NCBI GenBank assembly: GCA_012838265.1 | Contig: DUPP01000116.1 | Span: 1 to 42,480 of the forward strand | Reading direction: 5' to 3' | DNA from: Clostridiales bacterium | Lineage (GTDB): Bacteria > Bacillota > Clostridia > Peptostreptococcales > Anaerovoracaceae | Length of the DNA stretch: 42,480 bases | Shown here: positions 16,563 through 29,885 of the stretch, piece by piece | How positions within the stretch are numbered: the first letter of the stretch is position 1 | Layout of the letters: the number at the start of each line of letters is the position of its first letter | The notes under the pieces: generated by a model | Told to the model about the DNA's origin: nothing | The model's database searches: none | Seen by the model: only the letters and a program-made list of their open reading frames with translations | Translations under genes and position numbers: made by a program

Positions 16563-18323
16563 GTGAAGAACAATATGAAGGTTGTTGTTGGACAGGGTAG
16601 TTGTGGAGTAGCTTCGGGCGCCAGAAAAACAGCTGCTGAATTTGAGAGATTAATATCAGAAAAAGGACTCAATATAGAAGTTGCAAAAACTGGTTGTGTA
16701 GGTAACTGCTATTTAGAGCCGATTGTTGACGTATATGATGATAAAGGTGCCTTAACAAGGTATGTTAAGGTTCAACCTGATAGGGTTTCCGATATAGTTG
16801 AAAAGCACCTAATTGGCGGTGAACCTGCTGAGGGTCATGCAATAATGGAAACAGACAAAATGTTCATAGATAAACAGGAAAGAATCGTATTAAGAAATTG
16901 TGGCTTGATAAATCCGGAGGATATTGAAGAATATATCGCAGCAGGAGGTTATGAAGCAACGAAAAAAGCAGTAACCTCGATGACACCGGAGGAAGTCATT
17001 GAAGAAATCAAAGTATCAGGATTAAGAGGCAGGGGAGGTGCCGGATTCCCTACTTGGTTTAAGTGGAATGCCGCAAGACAAGCCCCGGGAACAGAAAAAT
17101 ATATGGTATGTAATGCTGACGAAGGAGATCCTGGTGCCTTCATGGATAGAAGCATTTTGGAAGGAGACCCTCATTCACTTATTGAAGGGATGATTATAGG
17201 CGGATATGCAATAGGTGCGTCAGAAGGATTGATTTATGTTAGAGCAGAATATCCTTTAGCTATTCACAGACTTGAGATTGCAATGGAACAGGCAAGAGAA
17301 AAGGGTTTTCTGGGAAACAATATTTTCGAATCCGGTTACAACTTTGATATAAGAATAAAGGCTGGAGCTGGCGCATTCGTTTGTGGAGAAGAAACAGCAT
17401 TGATTGCCTCACTTGAAGGAGAGAGAGGTATGCCGCGTCTGAAGCCGCCATTCCCTGCTCAGAAAGGATTTTGGCAGAAACCAACTAATATAAATAACGT
17501 GGAAACATTTGCAAATATTCCATGGATTATTGCTCACGGCGGAGCTGCATTTGGAGCTTATGGAACCCCTCAGAGCAAGGGTACAAAGGTATTTGCATTG
17601 GCAGGCAAGATTAAAAAGGGAGGTCTTGTTGAGGTTCCCATGGGCTTGCCGCTTAAAGAAGTTATTTACGGTATTGGCGACGGCATCAAAGATGATAAGG
17701 AATTTAAAGCTGTTCAGATGGGCGGCCCTTCAGGCGGATGTATCCCGGCTTCACTGGCTGATACACCGGTAGATTATGAGAATATCACTAAAACAGGTGC
17801 AATTGTCGGTTTTGGCGGAATGATCGTAATGGACGAAACGACCTGTATGGTGGATATGGCAAGGTATTTTCTTGATTTTACAAGAAAAGAGTCATGCGGT
17901 AAATGCAACTATTGCCGTGTTGGGACAAAGAGAATGTTGGAGATTCTTGAAAGAATTACGTTAGGAGAGGGAAAAGACGGCGATATTGAGCTTTTGGAAG
18001 AACTTGCATCAAAGATTAAAGACGGTTCAATGTGCGGATTGGGACAAACAGCTCCAAATCCTGTGCTTACAACTATCAAATACTTTAGAAACGAGTATGA
18101 GGATCATATATACAAGAAAAAATGTACAGCTCATTCCTGTAAAGAATTGCTGACATTTACCATTACAGATAAATGTACAGGATGTACCTTATGTTCCAGA
18201 AAATGTCCTGTTAATGCAATTTCAGGTGAATTAAAGAAATTGCATGAAATCGATCAAAGATTATGTATTAAGTGTGGAAAATGCGAAGAAGTTTGCAGAT
18301 TCGACGCAATTATAAGAGACTAA
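16563..18323 (+). CDS. NuoF/HydB-like FMN- and NAD(H)-binding subunit with C-terminal 2x[4Fe-4S] ferredoxin domain
   Basis: GRGGAGFPTWFKWNAARQ, CNADEGDPGAFMDR, GAGAFVCGEETALIASLEGERG, ESCGKCNYCRVGTKRM, CTGCTLCSRKCP / CIKCGKCEEVC. Confidence 0.95.
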   Translation: MKNNMKVVVGQGSCGVASGARKTAAEFERLISEKGLNIEVAKTGCVGNCYLEPIVDVYDDKGALTRYVKVQPDRVSDIVEKHLIGGEPAEGHAIMETDKMFIDKQERIVLRNCGLINPEDIEEYIAAGGYEATKKAVTSMTPEEVIEEIKVSGLRGRGGAGFPTWFKWNAARQAPGTEKYMVCNADEGDPGAFMDRSILEGDPHSLIEGMIIGGYAIGASEGLIYVRAEYPLAIHRLEIAMEQAREKGFLGNNIFESGYNFDIRIKAGAGAFVCGEETALIASLEGERGMPRLKPPFPAQKGFWQKPTNINNVETFANIPWIIAHGGAAFGAYGTPQSKGTKVFALAGKIKKGGLVEVPMGLPLKEVIYGIGDGIKDDKEFKAVQMGGPSGGCIPASLADTPVDYENITKTGAIVGFGGMIVMDETTCMVDMARYFLDFTRKESCGKCNYCRVGTKRMLEILERITLGEGKDGDIELLEELASKIKDGSMCGLGQTAPNPVLTTIKYFRNEYEDHIYKKKCTAHSCKELLTFTITDKCTGCTLCSRKCPVNAISGELKKLHEIDQRLCIKCGKCEEVCRFDAIIRD

Positions 18324-18340
18324 GGAGAGAGGTGATAAAG

Positions 18341-21300
18341 ATGAAAAAAATTAGAATAAATATTGATGGCAAAGAAGTTTTAGGACTTCCCGGACAGACA
18401 ATCTTGGACGTTGCAAAAGAGAATGATATCTATATCCCTACTCTCTGCTTTGATGAAAGAACTGAAATATATGGTGCATGCGGGCTATGTGTTGTCGAGG
18501 TTGAAGGTAATCCCAAAATGGTTAAAGCCTGTGCAACTGAAATCGCTCCGAATATGGTGATTTTAACGTCAACCGAGAGAGTAAAGGAGTCCCGAAAAAC
18601 AAATCTTGGGCTTCTGTTATCTAACCACATTGGAGACTGTAGACCTCCATGTGTATTGGCATGTCCTGCGGGAACTGATTGTCAGGGTTATGTAGGTTTG
18701 ATAGTTAACGGAGAATTTGATAAAGCGAATGAACTGATTAAGGATAAAATACCATTGCCGGGAGCAATAGGAAGAGTTTGTCCACATCCATGTGAAGATA
18801 ACTGCAGAAGAAAGCTAATCGATGAACCGATCTCGATAGCATGGTTAAAGAGATTTGCTTCGGACTATGATCTGTCTGGAGATAATCCGTTTATACCAGA
18901 TATCGCTCCTGATACAGGAAAGTCAGTAGCAATTATCGGCGGTGGTCCAATGGGACTTTCAGCAGCGTATTTCCTTCGTGTTAAGGGACATGCTGTTACA
19001 ATTTTCGATGCCATGCCAAAACTTGGAGGAATGCTTAGATACGGTATCCCTGAGTACAGGCTGCCAAAAGAGGTGTTAGATGAAGAGATTTATCTCATTG
19101 AAAAAATGGGAGTAACTATGATCCCTAATACTAAGGTTGGTGTCGATATTTCCTTTGAATCTATACGGAAGGACTTCGATGCGGTTCTTATTGGTATAGG
19201 TGCTTGGGTTTCCACAGGTGTAGGCTGCAAGGGTGAGGATGCTGAGGGTGTTATAGGCGGCATCGATTTCTTAAGAAAAGTAGTAAGAAATGAAGAAATA
19301 AAGATTGGAGATAGAGTTGCTATCGTCGGCGGCGGAAATACAGCCATGGACGCATGCAGAACAGCTGTAAGACTTGGAGCCAGAGAAGTTTATAATATCT
19401 ATAGACGTACTAAAGATGAGATGCCGGCAGATATGATTGAAATAATAGAGGCAGAAGAAGAAGGAGTTATCTTCAAAAATCTGGTCAACCCATTAGAAAT
19501 AATTAAGGATGAAAAAGGGCATGTAAAACAGATTTTGCTTCAGGTTATGGAACTTGGTGAGCCAGATGAAAGCGGAAGAAGAGCACCAAAGCCAATTGAA
19601 GGTAAAACTGAGACGCTGGATATCGATACTGTAATACTTGCAATCGGTCAGGCTGTTGATCCTCAAGGATTTGAAGGACTGGATCTTACAAGAAAGCGGG
19701 GTATCGCATACGATAAAGATACCTATATGACAAGCTTAGAAGGTGTATTTGCAGGTGGAGACTGTGGAAATGATAAGATATCCATTGCCGTTGAAGCAAT
19801 TGCAGATGCAAATAAAGCCTCTGAAATAATTGATGCATACCTTAACGGTGAAAAAATTAAATACGAAAAGCCTTATGTAGTTGAAAGACATGATATAACG
19901 GAAAAAACCTTTGAAGACAGAGAAAGACAATGTAGGCCAAAGATGGATCAGCTTGAAGCCATGGAAAGAAAAGACAACTTCACGGAGATAGTATTCGGAT
20001 ATGATGCTGATAAGGCTGTTGAAGATTCCATGAGATGTCTTGAGTGCGGATGTCACGATTACTTTGAATGTAAGCTGATACAATATGCAAATGAATACAA
20101 GGTTGAACCAGAACGATTTGCAGGAGATGTGAACAAAATCGACTATGAGGACGATCATCCGTTTATAGTAAGAGATCCTAACAAGTGTATTCTTTGCGGT
20201 TTATGCGTACGTGTCTGTGATGAAGTGATGGGAGTTGGAGCACTCGGATTAGTAAATAGAGGATTTGATACAGTCGTAAAACCTACACTTGAAAGGCCAC
20301 TTACTGAATCAGGCTGCGTGACTTGCGGTCAGTGTGTAAGCATTTGTCCAACAGGTGCTTTAGGTGAAAAACTTTCAATATCAAAGCCTGTTCCACTTAA
20401 GACTGAAGTAACGAATTCAACCTGTCCTTATTGCTCCGTAGGATGTAGTTTGCACCTTGAAACCTATGGTGATATGCTGATTAAAGCTATTCCGGATATG
20501 GAAGGGGCTGTAAATAAAGGTCTTCTTTGTGGAAAAGGAAGATTTGGATTTGATTGTGCGCAGCTAGAAGGCAAATTAGTCGACCCTATGATCAAAAAAG
20601 AAAATGGATTAGAGGAAGTAAATTATCATGAAGCATTTATGGTAACTGCCAAGAAAGCTCAAGCTATTGGAGCAAAATATGGCAAAGATGCCGTAGCTGT
20701 AGCTATTTCTGACAGATATACAAACGAAGAGGCTTATGCGATTAAAAAATTTGCAGATATAATAGGTGCTAAGACACTGAGCTTTAATAATCGGAAAAAT
20801 GGTATTGCAGAAGTTTTAGGTTTTGATGCATCTCCTAATACTATTGACGAGCTTCTTGCAACAGAAGTGATACTTGTTACAGGATTCAATATCGTGCTTA
20901 ATCCGATTATTCAATTAAAACTTAAACAAGCAGCTGAGGCAGGAGTAAAAGTGGTTCTTATTAACCCCAAAGGATATGAACAACACTTTGAGTTTGCAAC
21001 AAAGACAGTCTATGTAAATAACGATGTTAATTTTTTAAAGGAAGTTGCAAAAGCATTGTTGGATATGGGCAAGAAATCCAATGCCGAAGGCTTTGATGAG
21101 TTTACCGCAAGTATTGCAAAGGTTAAAACAAGCGATGATGCAAAAGAAATTGCTGAGCTTTATGGTAATGCTAAGAAAGCGATGATCGTATTCCAACAGA
21201 ATTTAGTTACTGCGGATGCAGCATCATTGCTTGCTAATATAGCTGTTATTTCCGGACCTATCGGTTCTCCGAGAGACGGTATTCTTATGGTTAAGGCAAA

Positions 21301-21835
21301 GAATAACAGTCAGGGCTTAATCGATCTTGGAATAAGATCAGGTTCAGAATCACTTGAGGGAGTGAAAGCAATTTTAATATTCGGAGAGGATCCAGATATG
21401 GATTTAAGCGGGATGGAGTTTATAATGGTTTCCGATACTCATATGACTGAAACAGCTAAAAAAGCGGATGTCGTTATTCCGGGTACCGGTTTTGCCTCCA
21501 CAGACGGCACTTTTACCAACACTGAAAGGCGACTGCAGCAAGTATCACAGGCAATTTTTGAGGACGTTGCCTACAGCAACTGGGAAATTGCTGCAGAGCT
21601 AGCTCATGTATTCGAAGTAGAAATGCCTTTTGATGACACTTATGATATTTACGCAGAAATGAAAGATCAGCTTGATAAATATAAATATGCTAAAATCGGT
21701 GAAATAATTGGTGGAGTGCTTAAGCCGGAATCCCCTGTATTAAAGGTTATTGGTGATGCTGAATTTGTAGCACCGCTAAAATCTACGGATAATCTTATGA
21801 ATGTTATTTCACGAAGACTACCCAAGCCAGTATAA
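18341..21835 (+). CDS. NuoG-like [2Fe-2S]/[4Fe-4S]/molybdopterin-type protein with an inserted GltD-like FAD/NAD(P)-binding domain
   Basis: N-terminal 2Fe-2S (CGLCVVEVEGNPKMVKAC), GltD-like Rossmann motifs IIGGGPMGLSAAYFL and AIVGGGNTAMDACRTA, 2x[4Fe-4S] (CILCGLCVRVCDE, CVTCGQCVSICPTGAL), CPYCSVGCSLHL...GLLCGKGRFG. No Sec or Cys after GFDC; true start probably ATG 18341. Confidence 0.9.
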   Translation: MKKIRINIDGKEVLGLPGQTILDVAKENDIYIPTLCFDERTEIYGACGLCVVEVEGNPKMVKACATEIAPNMVILTSTERVKESRKTNLGLLLSNHIGDCRPPCVLACPAGTDCQGYVGLIVNGEFDKANELIKDKIPLPGAIGRVCPHPCEDNCRRKLIDEPISIAWLKRFASDYDLSGDNPFIPDIAPDTGKSVAIIGGGPMGLSAAYFLRVKGHAVTIFDAMPKLGGMLRYGIPEYRLPKEVLDEEIYLIEKMGVTMIPNTKVGVDISFESIRKDFDAVLIGIGAWVSTGVGCKGEDAEGVIGGIDFLRKVVRNEEIKIGDRVAIVGGGNTAMDACRTAVRLGAREVYNIYRRTKDEMPADMIEIIEAEEEGVIFKNLVNPLEIIKDEKGHVKQILLQVMELGEPDESGRRAPKPIEGKTETLDIDTVILAIGQAVDPQGFEGLDLTRKRGIAYDKDTYMTSLEGVFAGGDCGNDKISIAVEAIADANKASEIIDAYLNGEKIKYEKPYVVERHDITEKTFEDRERQCRPKMDQLEAMERKDNFTEIVFGYDADKAVEDSMRCLECGCHDYFECKLIQYANEYKVEPERFAGDVNKIDYEDDHPFIVRDPNKCILCGLCVRVCDEVMGVGALGLVNRGFDTVVKPTLERPLTESGCVTCGQCVSICPTGALGEKLSISKPVPLKTEVTNSTCPYCSVGCSLHLETYGDMLIKAIPDMEGAVNKGLLCGKGRFGFDCAQLEGKLVDPMIKKENGLEEVNYHEAFMVTAKKAQAIGAKYGKDAVAVAISDRYTNEEAYAIKKFADIIGAKTLSFNNRKNGIAEVLGFDASPNTIDELLATEVILVTGFNIVLNPIIQLKLKQAAEAGVKVVLINPKGYEQHFEFATKTVYVNNDVNFLKEVAKALLDMGKKSNAEGFDEFTASIAKVKTSDDAKEIAELYGNAKKAMIVFQQNLVTADAASLLANIAVISGPIGSPRDGILMVKAKNNSQGLIDLGIRSGSESLEGVKAILIFGEDPDMDLSGMEFIMVSDTHMTETAKKADVVIPGTGFASTDGTFTNTERRLQQVSQAIFEDVAYSNWEIAAELAHVFEVEMPFDDTYDIYAEMKDQLDKYKYAKIGEIIGGVLKPESPVLKVIGDAEFVAPLKSTDNLMNVISRRLPKPV

Positions 21836-25075: not shown

Positions 25076-25137
25076 ATTCTTAAAGAAAAGACTTATAAAA
25101 AGCCTTACATCTTATAAATTTGTATTAGGAGTAAATG

Positions 25138-25422
25138 TCAATGAATGAAAAAATAAGTAAAGTACTAAGTGAGAAAGTGAACCCTGTGTTGGCATCTCAT
25201 TTTGGTGGAATCAAACTGACTAAATTTGAAAATGGGATTGCATACGTAAAAATGACAGGTGAATGCAGTACTTGTCCTTCAGCCCAATTTATCATTGAAG
25301 ATGTGGTAAAGGGTATCGTAATGCAAGAAGTTCCTGAAGTTAAAGATATTGTTTTAGACATGAGCGTAGACGAAGAACTGCTAGATATGGCGAGAAAAAT
25401 ATTAAATAAAGAAAAAAGGTAA
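25138..25422 (+). CDS. Small NifU-like (NifU C-terminal domain) FeS scaffold protein
   Basis: 95-aa ORF, CSTCPSAQFIIEDVVKGIVMQEVPEVKDIVLD resembles the NifU C-terminal CxxC domain; start 25135 or nearby. Confidence 0.75.
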   Translation, partial: SMNEKISKVLSEKVNPVLASHFGGIKLTKFENGIAYVKMTGECSTCPSAQFIIEDVVKGIVMQEVPEVKDIVLDMSVDEELLDMARKILNKEKR

Positions 25423-25567: not shown

Positions 25568-27046
25568 ATGGCATTAATGAACGGAGCTCAATATATTGAG
25601 AGCTTAAGAAATTTGAACACCAAAGTGTACCTGTTCGGTGAGGAGGTAAAAAACTGGGTGGATCATCCAATGATTAGGCCTTCAATCGAATGTATCGCTA
25701 TGACGTACGAATTGGCCCATGATCCTCAGTATGCTGATTTGATGACGGCTAAGTCTAATCTTACAGGTGAAACGGTGAACAGATTTTCACACCTTCATCA
25801 GAGTACTGAAGACTTAATAAAAAAAGTGAAGATGCAGAGACTTCTTGGTCAGAAAACGGCATCCTGCTTCCAAAGGTGTGTAGGAATGGACGCGTTCAAT
25901 GCAGTGTTTTCTACGACCTATGAAATTGATAAGAAATATGGGACAGAATACCATGAACATTTTAAAAAATATCTTATGTATATTCAGGAAAAAGATCTTG
26001 TTGTGGATGGCGCAATGACTGATCCAAAGGGTGACAGGAGTTTGGCTCCAAGCCAGCAGGCTGATCTTGATTTGTTCCTTCGCATTGTAGAAAAAAGGCC
26101 TGATGGGATAGTAGTCAGAGGGGCAAAATGTCATCAAACCGGCTCAATTAATTCACATGAACATTTAATTATGCCAACAATGGCTATGAGCGAAGCTGAT
26201 AAGTCATATGCGGTATCCTTTGCAATTGAGTCTGATGCACCAGGTCTCTTCATGGTTTACGGACGCCAGTCCTGTGATACCAGGAAGCTGGAAGAAAATG
26301 CAGATATAGATCTTGGAAATAAGAAGTTTGGTGGGCAGGAGGCATTAGTAGTCTTTGATGATGTCTTCATTCCAAACGAAAGAGTTTTTATGTGTGAAGA
26401 ATATGACTTTGCAGGAATGCTAGTAGAAAGATTTGCTGGATATCACAGACAGTCTTATGGTGGATGCAAGGTAGGAGTGGGCGACGTTATAATTGGTGCC
26501 GCAGCCCTTGCAGCCGATTACAATGGGGCACAAAAAGCTTCCCATATCAAAGATAAACTTATCGAAATGACACATCTAAATGAAACTTTATACAGCTGTG
26601 GTATAGCATGCTCAGCTGAAGGGTATCCAACAGAAGCAGGAAACTATCAAATCGATTTGCTTCTTGCCAATGTGTGCAAGCTAAATGTTACAAGGTTTCC
26701 ATATGAAATCGTAAGGCTTGCAGAAGACATTGCCGGAGGTCTGATGGTTACCATGCCGTCTGAAAAAGATTTTAAATCGGATTTAGTAGTAGGGCAAACA
26801 GGGAAGTCTATAGGAGAATGGTGCAATAAGTTATTTGCTGCTGCTCCAGGAGTTACTACAGAAAATAGGACGCGTATATTGAGATTCCTAGAGAATATCT
26901 GTCTTGGCTCATCTGCTGTAGGTTATAGAACGGAATCCTTACATGGCGCTGGATCTCCACAGGCACAAAGAATAATGATAGCTCGTCAGGGCAATATCGA
27001 ACATAAGAAACAGCTAGCTAAGGAAATAGCAGGAATCAAAGAATAA
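25568..27046 (+). CDS. abfD: 4-hydroxybutyryl-CoA dehydratase / vinylacetyl-CoA delta-isomerase
   Basis: Full-length match by eye to AbfD; C100-x3-C104 (TASCFQRC) and H293...C300 (GYHRQSYGGC) match the [4Fe-4S] ligands known from C. aminobutyricum AbfD (C99, C103, H292, C299). Confidence 0.95.
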   Translation: MALMNGAQYIESLRNLNTKVYLFGEEVKNWVDHPMIRPSIECIAMTYELAHDPQYADLMTAKSNLTGETVNRFSHLHQSTEDLIKKVKMQRLLGQKTASCFQRCVGMDAFNAVFSTTYEIDKKYGTEYHEHFKKYLMYIQEKDLVVDGAMTDPKGDRSLAPSQQADLDLFLRIVEKRPDGIVVRGAKCHQTGSINSHEHLIMPTMAMSEADKSYAVSFAIESDAPGLFMVYGRQSCDTRKLEENADIDLGNKKFGGQEALVVFDDVFIPNERVFMCEEYDFAGMLVERFAGYHRQSYGGCKVGVGDVIIGAAALAADYNGAQKASHIKDKLIEMTHLNETLYSCGIACSAEGYPTEAGNYQIDLLLANVCKLNVTRFPYEIVRLAEDIAGGLMVTMPSEKDFKSDLVVGQTGKSIGEWCNKLFAAAPGVTTENRTRILRFLENICLGSSAVGYRTESLHGAGSPQAQRIMIARQGNIEHKKQLAKEIAGIKE

Positions 27047-27070: not shown

Positions 27071-27098
27071 AGAACCGTCGAAGCTATTCGGCGGTTCT
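27071..27098 (+). other. strong intergenic hairpin after abfD without a clear T-tract (attenuator or processing stem?)
   Basis: AGAACCGTCGAA-gcta-TTCGGCGGTTCT. Confidence 0.55.
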
Positions 27099-27120
27099 AT
27101 ATGGTTTAGGAGAACGGTAA

Positions 27121-27396
27121 ATGCTTATAGGCATAAAATATTGCGGAGGCTGCAACCCCAGATACAATAGGGGAGGAGCATTTGAAACGATAAAAAAACA
27201 GCTGCCTAATAATGTAGAGTTCGCTATAGCTGAAGAAAGCATCGAATATGATTATCTGTTGGTGATAGGAGGATGCACGAAATGCTGTGCATCTTATTGT
27301 CAATATCAGGTAAAGAATGATATTATATTTGTGCGGAATGAAGACCATATTGACATGGCTATTACAAAAATTGAAGATATTGTGGGAGGAAAATGA
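27121..27396 (+). CDS. Small Cys-rich protein of unknown function inside the 4HB cluster
   Basis: 91 aa, MLIGIKYCGGCNPRYNR...GGCTKCCASYCQYQ; good SD (aggag); stop is 1 nt before the next start codon. Confidence 0.8.
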   Translation: MLIGIKYCGGCNPRYNRGGAFETIKKQLPNNVEFAIAEESIEYDYLLVIGGCTKCCASYCQYQVKNDIIFVRNEDHIDMAITKIEDIVGGK

Positions 27397-27397
27397 T

Positions 27398-28714
27398 TTG
27401 AACTGGAAACAATTGTATAAGGAACGACTATGTACAGCAGAAGAAGCGGTTAATTGCATAAAATCAGGTGATAAGGTTGCATTTGCCCATGCTATTGCAG
27501 AACCTACGGTGCTTGTAGATGCAATGGTTGCCAATGCTAAAGCCTATAAAAATGTTGAAATAAGCCACATGGTTTCTCTTGGGAAGGGTGAATACAGCAA
27601 GCCTGAATATAAGGAAAATTTCAGGGTTAACAGTTGGTTTGTAAGTCCAGCTGTTCGAGGCAGCATTGCAGAAGGTCATGGCGATTATACACCTGTATTT
27701 TTCTATGAAATACCTTCATATATAAGAAAAGGAATATTCAAATTAAATGTCTTTATGGTTACTGTTTCTCCTCCGGATGAACACGGGTATTGCTGTGTAG
27801 GTGTATCTTGTGATTATACAATGCAAGCCATTGAATCTGCTGATATTGTTCTTGCAGAAGTAAATGATCAGGTTCCTGTAGTATATGGTGATGCTTTTGT
27901 ACATGTTAGCAAAATCGACAGATTTGTTGAATCATCACGACCATTGCCTGAACTTTCGCTACCTCATATTGGCGAAACTGAGCTTGCAATTGGCAGATAC
28001 TGTGCAGAGCTTATTGAAGATGGGGCAACATTACAATTGGGAATAGGTGCTATTCCCGATGCAGTACTTCAGGCATTAAAGGACAAAAAGGATCTTGGCA
28101 TCCATTCAGAAATGATATCTGATGGGGTAGTAGACTTGTACGAGGCAGGTGTTATAAACAATTCCCAAAAAGGAATAAATAAAGGAAAAATGGTAGTAAC
28201 ATTTCTGATGGGTACTAAGAGGATATATGACTTTATAGACCATAATCCAGCAGTCGAAATGCGCACAGTTGATTACGTAAACCATCCTGTGATTGTTGCG
28301 CAAAATACAAAGTTGGTAAGTATTAACTCTTGTATTTCAGTAGATTTTATGGGGCAGGTAGTATCTGACAGCATAGGTATTACTCAATTTAGCGGAGTTG
28401 GTGGACAGGTGGATTTCATCAGAGGAGCAGCAATGTCGATTGACGGCAAGGGTAAAGCAATAATTGCAATGCCTTCAGTAGCTAAGAAAAAAGATGGAAC
28501 ACTTATTTCCAAAATAACTCCTTATATTGATAAGGGCGCAGCTGTAACCACCTCAAGAAACGATGTAGATTATATCGTTACAGAATATGGGATTGCCCCA
28601 TTAAAAGGTCAAACCTTAAAGAACAGAGCTAGAAATTTAATTAACATATCTCATCCGGATTTTAGAGAAGAGTTAAAAATAGAATTTGAAAAAAGATTTA
28701 ATGCAAAATTTTAA
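27398..28714 (+). CDS. abfT: 4-hydroxybutyrate CoA-transferase
   Basis: Acetyl-CoA hydrolase/transferase family: GATLQLGIGAIPDAVLQAL, SVDFMGQVVSDSIG, QFSGVGGQVDFIRGA; probable TTG start at 27398 after gggagg. Confidence 0.9.
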   Translation: MNWKQLYKERLCTAEEAVNCIKSGDKVAFAHAIAEPTVLVDAMVANAKAYKNVEISHMVSLGKGEYSKPEYKENFRVNSWFVSPAVRGSIAEGHGDYTPVFFYEIPSYIRKGIFKLNVFMVTVSPPDEHGYCCVGVSCDYTMQAIESADIVLAEVNDQVPVVYGDAFVHVSKIDRFVESSRPLPELSLPHIGETELAIGRYCAELIEDGATLQLGIGAIPDAVLQALKDKKDLGIHSEMISDGVVDLYEAGVINNSQKGINKGKMVVTFLMGTKRIYDFIDHNPAVEMRTVDYVNHPVIVAQNTKLVSINSCISVDFMGQVVSDSIGITQFSGVGGQVDFIRGAAMSIDGKGKAIIAMPSVAKKKDGTLISKITPYIDKGAAVTTSRNDVDYIVTEYGIAPLKGQTLKNRARNLINISHPDFREELKIEFEKRFNAKF

Positions 28715-28766: not shown

Positions 28767-29885
28767 ATGCTAGCTTTAAGAATAGTTCCAAAAATATTTT
28801 ATTTTAATAATTTTAAAGAATTTAATGATGAATTCAAATTAGGTAAGAATGATTTAGTTTTGACAAACGAATCTAGGTACAATCAATTCATTAAGCCGCT
28901 CGGAGTAGATACAAATGTTATCTTCAGGGAAAAGTTTGGTAAGGGTGAACCATCTGATGAAATGATCGATGCAATAGCTAAAGAGATGAAGAAGTATAGC
29001 TTTGAGAGAATAATTGCATTTGGTGGCGGTACTATAGTAGACATATGCAAAGTGTTAGCTTTAGATGTACCTGAAAAATCTGTTGACCTCTTCACAGGGA
29101 AAGCAGTCCCCAAGAAAATCAAGGAGCTGGTTATTGTTCCTACAACAGCAGGAACAGGAAGTGAAGTGACAAACGTTGCAATTGCAGAATTAAAATCATT
29201 AAAAATCAAGAAGGGCATTGCTGTTGAAGAGACGTATGCAGATTATGCAGTACTTATACCTGAAACTGTAAAAGGCCTTCCATATAAATTCTTTATTACA
29301 AGCTCCCTTGATGCATTGATACATGCAGTCGAATCTTTTTTATCGCCAAAGGCATCTCCTTTCACCGAAATGTATTCGCTTAAAGCAATCCAAATGATAA
29401 TGAATGGCTACAAGGAAATAGTTGCAAAGGGTGAGGATGAGAGATTGAATCATCTCAAGGACTATATGCTGGCTTCCAATTATGCCGGAATTGCTTTTGG
29501 AAATGCAGGTTGTGCTGCAGTTCATGCGTTGTCATATTCAATAGGCGGAGCATTCCATGTACCCCATGGCGAAGCAAACTATCAGTTTTTCACAGAGGTA
29601 TTAAAAATGTATATGAAAAAGAATCCAAACGGTAAAATCGTTGAAGCCACCAAAATATTTGCTGAAGTTCTTGACATGGATGTAAATGGAGATGTTTACG
29701 GAGAATTGGAGAATTTTCTGAACAAACTGATCGCAAAGAAGCCGCTTAGAGAATATGGAATGGTTGAAAGTCAAATTGATGAATTTACAAAATCCACGAT
29801 AGAAAACCAGCAGAGATTGTTAGCTAATAATTATGTATTTCTAACTGATGAAGATATCAGAGAAATCTTTGCAAACCTGTACTAA
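28767..29885 (+). CDS. abfH: 4-hydroxybutyrate dehydrogenase (iron-containing alcohol dehydrogenase family)
   Basis: FGGGTIVDICKVLAL, VPTTAGTGSEVTNVAI, SSLDALIHAVESFLSPKASPFTEMYSL; cluster context; ATG 28767 after ggagg. Confidence 0.9.
   Translation: MLALRIVPKIFYFNNFKEFNDEFKLGKNDLVLTNESRYNQFIKPLGVDTNVIFREKFGKGEPSDEMIDAIAKEMKKYSFERIIAFGGGTIVDICKVLALDVPEKSVDLFTGKAVPKKIKELVIVPTTAGTGSEVTNVAIAELKSLKIKKGIAVEETYADYAVLIPETVKGLPYKFFITSSLDALIHAVESFLSPKASPFTEMYSLKAIQMIMNGYKEIVAKGEDERLNHLKDYMLASNYAGIAFGNAGCAAVHALSYSIGGAFHVPHGEANYQFFTEVLKMYMKKNPNGKIVEATKIFAEVLDMDVNGDVYGELENFLNKLIAKKPLREYGMVESQIDEFTKSTIENQQRLLANNYVFLTDEDIREIFANLY

Follow-up and report, generated by a model that had tools for sequence, protein, structure and literature searches.

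AbfD is the model enzyme for dehydration through a ketyl radical by means of a [4Fe-4S] cluster and a flavin, and represents a step in archaeal CO2 fixation and in 4-hydroxybutyrate/GABA fermentation, including that of C. difficile. The [4Fe-4S] cluster of AbfD is oxygen-labile and has an unusual ligation of three cysteines and one histidine. In the literature that we searched, no description of the insertion or repair of the AbfD cluster was found. Among the described systems, the closest in proposed function are the Nfu proteins, carriers with a NifU C-terminal domain (PF01106) that provide Fe-S clusters to client enzymes. AbfD is both abundant and slow (PMC7078158), which would make a dedicated factor for its maturation or repair useful. 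In an iron-regulation study of C. difficile 630, CD630_23400, listed as a “hypothetical protein” between cat2 and abfD, had log2 changes of -2.16 and -1.55 and fell together with abfD, sucD and cat1 (PMC6311696).

Here, we analyzed a locus from a Clostridiales bacterium that encodes a small protein at the corresponding position. The window, i.e. the whole stretch of 42,480 nucleotides analyzed (contig DUPP01000116.1), contains a run of five genes on the + strand in the order Nfu-AbfD-Sml-AbfT-4HbD, and the genes next to this run at either end lie on the - strand. Sml is the working name that we give to the 91-aa four-Cys protein encoded by the third gene, between abfD and abfT.

Results

The features of the five-gene run are listed in Table 1. 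A sequence-only reading of this DNA had pointed out an ORF of 91 aa with six cysteines between abfD and abfT, behind a hairpin and tightly spaced with the CoA-transferase gene. The sequence and the coordinates agree with that description, the ORF has its own ribosome-binding site, and a single base separates the stop codon of Sml from the TTG start of abfT, at which the homolog alignments begin as well. The AGGAG motif is likewise found 5' of many Sml homologs.

Table 1. Coordinates of the features of the Nfu-AbfD-Sml-AbfT-4HbD run in the window
Feature	Position	Strand	Basis
Nfu (NifU C-terminal-domain), Fe-S carrier paralog	25135-25422	+	Pfam NifU, E 6.6e-17; CxxC in GECSTCPSA
abfD	25568-27046	+	Pfam HpaB_N/HpaB; cluster-ligand positions C100, C104, H293, C300
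Intercistronic RNA hairpin (stem of 12 bp, loop of 4 nt) without a true T-tract	27071-27098	+	fold z = -4.4
Sml ribosome-binding site AGGAG	27108-27112	+	8 nt 5' of the ATG; read in the sequence
Sml gene	27121-27396	+	ORF call; ATG start, TGA stop at 27394-27396
abfT/cat2-type 4-hydroxybutyrate CoA-transferase	27398-28714	+	Pfam AcetylCoA_hyd_C, E 3.9e-62; TTG start
4hbD/abfH, Fe-ADH-type 4-hydroxybutyrate dehydrogenase	28767-29885	+	Pfam ADH_Fe_C, E 2.4e-45; synteny

Searches of Pfam, NCBIfam, PHROGs, PDB sequences and PLSDB with the Sml protein returned nothing above the cut-off, and an Rfam scan of the window gave no match. Our literature search found no paper describing Sml, the sole mention being the table row for CD630_23400. 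Homologs of Sml were found in 38 of 99 related genomes in a single-sequence search, in 26 of 399 Bacillota genomes with the window's own included, and in C. aminobutyricum. We aligned 30, 67 and 34 members, the set of 34 being the widest, and in these 34 diverse members eight residues (C8, G9, C11, N12, P13, G51, C52 and C56) were invariant. The window Sml has six cysteines (C8, C11, C52, C55, C56 and C60), of which only C8, C11, C52 and C56 are invariant among the relatives. Because C55 and C60 are not conserved, the constant feature of the family is C8-x2-C11 plus G-C52-x3-C56. Thus, of the CxxC and CxxCC-like groups proposed from the sequence alone, the six cysteines and the CxxC hold, and the second group is better written as G-C-x3-C. 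The window Sml has both motifs of the family, CGxCNP, which follows strand 1, and GC-x3-C, which follows strand 3. Sml is a real conserved family and more than a chance ORF.

The neighborhood of Sml was compared in two samples. The first, drawn evenly from Bacillota only, comprised 399 genomes and is a fairer test than the loci of close relatives. In this sample, all 25 other Sml carriers had an AbfD at 53% identity or more, and 26 of the 29 Sml copies had an AbfD gene no more than 1 kb away, with two more having one within 7.2 kb. Co-occurrence of Sml and AbfD had a Fisher P of 3e-29, a value to be read with the genomes not being independent. In the other direction, AbfD at 53% identity or more was present in 41 of the 399 genomes, 16 of which (about 40%) had no detectable Sml, and about half of the AbfD genes at this identity had no linked Sml, many of the sampled genomes being incomplete assemblies. 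The 38 carriers among the 99 relatives include a single genome (G023/G497, 85% complete) without any trace of AbfD, the one exception to an AbfD-family gene being adjacent to Sml or elsewhere in the genome, and two further carriers in which AbfD is cut by a contig end.

The second sample was the best 80 GTDB loci, which come from the closest relatives and are therefore biased. The usual order in these loci was Nfu-abfD-Sml-abfT-4hbD, with AbfD immediately 5' of Sml in 72, and the CoA-transferase immediately 3' in 71, of the 77 informative cases. Where Sml was not adjacent to AbfD (L096 and L107), AbfD was still present elsewhere in the genome. At L107 (6693-8112, Frisingicoccus caecimuris), an Nfu and Sml pair lies beside a DUF6076 gene with no AbfD nearby.

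In divergent clades (L160 to L164), Sml follows AbfD paralogs of 54-60% identity in clusters that encode a thiolase, a 3-hydroxyacyl-CoA dehydrogenase, an acyl-CoA dehydrogenase and an SDR, and most of these clusters contain neither abfT nor 4hbD. Because divergent Sml adjoins AbfD paralogs in clusters without abfT/4hbD, the partner of Sml is AbfD rather than the CoA-transferase. The gene-neighborhood comparison suggested by the sequence-only reading thus tied Sml to AbfD. That reading had also held that homologs broadly found without any 4-hydroxybutyrate or CoA-transferase genes would refute its proposal; such homologs do exist among the divergent clades, but they still lie beside AbfD paralogs.

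Two other observations concern AbfD paralogs. Those at L160-L165 and L168 form a clade of 54-60% identity in which the cluster ligands are kept, with several copies per genome. The genome of the window also encodes a second AbfD paralog, 58% identical, at G000:C20:19285-20715 (L150), on a contig that stops 270 bases downstream.

The window AbfD is 84% identical to the AbfD of C. aminobutyricum, and its C100, C104, H293 and C300 are at the positions known to ligate the cluster in that enzyme. The ligands are kept in the window AbfD and in every Sml-linked AbfD checked, and are absent from HpaB-type relatives at 27-32% identity. AbfDs without a linked Sml keep the same ligands, as do most of the more distant AbfD relatives at 33-46% identity; for the Fe-S AbfD relatives at 37-46% identity, which keep the ligands, no linkage to Sml was found. 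Mapped onto a tree with 61 AbfD proteins, the label of linked Sml needs 12 changes, six of which are forced by strongly supported branches. Linked Sml is clustered on the AbfD tree, yet has been repeatedly gained or lost. A general need of Fe-S AbfDs for Sml was tested, and it failed on both counts. Since unlinked AbfDs keep the ligands and the tree requires 12 changes, Sml is likely specific to AbfD without being required by all AbfDs.

Among the 62 loci with a full upstream flank, 55 have both AbfD and Nfu 5' of Sml, in the order Nfu-AbfD-Sml (51 loci) or AbfD-Nfu-Sml (4 loci). A second, better-scoring Nfu was found elsewhere in seven of the eight genomes examined, among them that of the window, so the operon Nfu is a specialized copy of this known Fe-S carrier family, beside a housekeeping Nfu. 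The Nfu carriers resemble Sml in its proposed role, and one of them is encoded in the same operon. On the other hand, Nfu is a separate neighboring gene, and its sequence and motif are unrelated to those of Sml. Of the evidence for a role of Sml connected with the cluster, the dedicated operon Nfu is the strongest. CD630_23400 shares with Sml the position between cat2/abfT and abfD and is assigned to the family by gene order, not by sequence, with the C. difficile loci L048 and L052. Unlike the window, these loci have no Nfu beside abfD, and the residues at C55 and C60 are not cysteines.

The hairpin between abfD and Sml was also examined. None of 200 shuffles folded as well as the hairpin region. 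Although a loose terminator scan lists it and its stem is G+C-rich, the hairpin is probably not a canonical terminator, because its tail in the window is ATATGGTTTA. The 12-bp stem without a proper T-tract is as the sequence-only reading described it, and a stem of at least 10 bp is present in 57 of 69 homologous abfD-Sml spacers. Mononucleotide shuffles of the spacers gave such a stem in 4 of 1380 cases. The other spacers of the same loci contain one in 6 of 168 cases (0/47 for Sml-abfT, 3/65 for abfT-4hbD and 3/56 for Nfu-abfD); the abfT and Sml-abfT spacers are shorter and have a lower chance of a stem, but the Nfu-abfD spacers, which match the abfD-Sml spacers in length, still lack it. The stem sequences vary widely (GAACCGTC, GAGGCCGC and AAGGACGG) with the pairing retained; as the stems were chosen for pairing, a tally of base pairs is not independent evidence, whereas the positional enrichment is. 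No T-run follows the hairpin in the genus of the window or its near relatives, T-rich tails occur elsewhere (e.g. at L091 and L100), and the hairpin is absent from the divergent clades. Both conserved and specific to its position, the hairpin most likely controls how much abfD message there is relative to the downstream genes, an effect that the sequence-only reading had also considered.

AlphaFold2 models of two Sml members have a common b-a-b-b-b-a layout, with a pLDDT of 85.5 for the window Sml and 89.5 for the other, and the cysteine pairs come after strand 1 and strand 3. A Foldseek search of the PDB with the two models gave nothing at E <= 0.001; the best E-values were 0.03 to 0.2, and the best matches were a mixture of Rossmann-like and ArsC/flavodoxin-like folds. 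The structure prediction that had been suggested for finding a metal site yielded a common layout, but no fold match at this threshold and no solved or profiled relative with a metal site, and we assigned Sml to no fold family. A thioredoxin-like [2Fe-2S] ferredoxin fold, suggested by the cysteine spacing, was dropped, as Foldseek gave no support for it.

Two known families come nearest to Sml. Selenoprotein W/Rdx (PF10262; PDB 2p0g) has a similar length and order of strands and helices and a CxxC after strand 1, but lacks the second invariant pair, GC-x3-C. The profile search of PDB sequences had a sole match, a selenoprotein W-related protein (E 1.6, N-terminal half), and one Sml member matches Pfam Rdx at E 0.15; neither is significant, and no Rdx structure is among the best 50 Foldseek matches of the Sml models. 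DGC proteins (PF08859) are likewise small; a cysteine follows their first strand, and a hydrophobic strand leads into a [D/G]GC-x3-C turn. In contrast to Sml, they need a D before the GC and have another N-terminal cysteine pattern. The window Sml scores 14.6 bits against DGC, where the Pfam gathering cut-off is 27, and seven of the 30 members scanned have weak scores, the best at E 0.013, that all stay below this cut-off. An hhalign comparison of Sml with DGC gave a probability of 77% over 17 columns around GC-x3-C. The DGC-x3-C pattern with C-x-G and a mid-protein cysteine is not found in Sml, and the invariant columns of the two families differ except at GC-x3-C.

Sml also occurs in fused form. 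At L172 (5301-6038) it forms a fusion with a MaoC hydratase, immediately 3' of an Nfu gene, and at L171 (3759-4829) it is in one open frame with an enoyl-CoA hydratase (crotonase). Elsewhere in the window, an ORF of 1187 aa (18272-21835) reads as an iron-sulfur NADH/formate dehydrogenase-like flavoprotein.

Discussion

We propose that Sml is an accessory factor dedicated to AbfD that takes part in Fe-S delivery or in insertion or repair of the AbfD cluster, a role to which we would give an even chance. The four invariant cysteines (CGGCNP after strand 1 and GC-x3-C after strand 3) could form one metal or Fe-S site, and Sml together with the operon Nfu would deliver, insert or repair the oxygen-labile [4Fe-4S] cluster. 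Through the hairpin 3' of abfD, which may act by stabilizing or partly terminating the abfD message, more of the abundant enzyme would be made than of the downstream factor and the transferase. The fusion of Sml to a MaoC hydratase next to Nfu and the fall of CD630_23400 together with its operon in the iron-regulation data also speak for the accessory role. The sequence-only reading had suggested an FeS/metal chaperone or redox partner for AbfD; the tie to AbfD, the invariant four-Cys pattern and the operon Nfu support this in part, and an Fe-S accessory role specific to AbfD fits them best. The AbfD of C. aminobutyricum was reportedly made active in E. coli, which counts against an accessory factor. 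So does the recombinant archaeal AbfD Msed_1321, which is tabulated as active (PMC7078158). The AbfD genomes without Sml, the unlinked AbfDs with unchanged ligands, the absence of a metal site from any solved or profiled relative and the C. difficile Sml without an adjacent Nfu also argue against it. More tentatively, and somewhat short of an even chance, the Sml family as a whole may represent target-specific Fe-S maturation or repair factors with their own fold and a dedicated Nfu, serving AbfD-class radical dehydratases, with expression set by the hairpin.

The cysteines of Sml could instead serve thiol chemistry. A CxxC directly after strand 1 in a b-a-b-b-b-a topology, with the selenoprotein W-related protein as the sole PDB profile match and the one weak Pfam Rdx match, would suit a SelW/Rdx-like thiol-redox protein that reduces or protects the cysteines or the flavin/cluster of AbfD and carries no cluster itself. 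We consider this unlikely, as the PDB match is at E 1.6, Rdx structures are missing from the best Foldseek matches, GC-x3-C lies outside the Rdx active site, and four invariant cysteines suit a metal site better.

It is a little less likely still that Sml binds AbfD in turnover as a small structural or regulatory subunit or as an electron donor/acceptor. The strict neighborhood with AbfD, a spacing of 19-80 nt between abfD and Sml in some clades, and the fusions to crotonase and MaoC hydratase, enzymes of neighboring CoA esters, would fit such a subunit. However, AbfD from C. aminobutyricum, which has Sml, was reportedly purified and crystallized as a homotetramer with no Sml-like subunit, and the overall AbfD dehydration is redox-neutral, so external electrons are not needed per turnover. 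That Sml might be a DGC-type protein which binds zinc or iron, has a function apart from the cluster and merely travels with the operon is improbable. The weak Pfam scores and the hhalign match would suit it, but the scores are all below the cut-off, the match is limited to the GC-x3-C turn, Sml mostly has G, S or C where DGC has its D, and hitch-hiking would not account for why Sml is linked to AbfD paralogs in different clusters.

The proposed role in Fe-S delivery or repair offers a hypothesis for a protein that is annotated as hypothetical across many gut anaerobes. Sml and a dedicated Nfu exist even in the organism of the classical AbfD biochemistry, and the two together could improve AbfD activity in engineered pathways.

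One copy of Sml departs from the family pattern. At L170 (5560-5772; G223:C1, about 879583), the first motif contains an in-frame TGA, with C-TGA-GC in place of CGGC, and the 3' end of the copy continues in frame into the CoA-transferase. We weighed selenocysteine at this TGA, but the continuation into the transferase makes decay the likelier explanation, and the L170 copy is probably a decaying gene.
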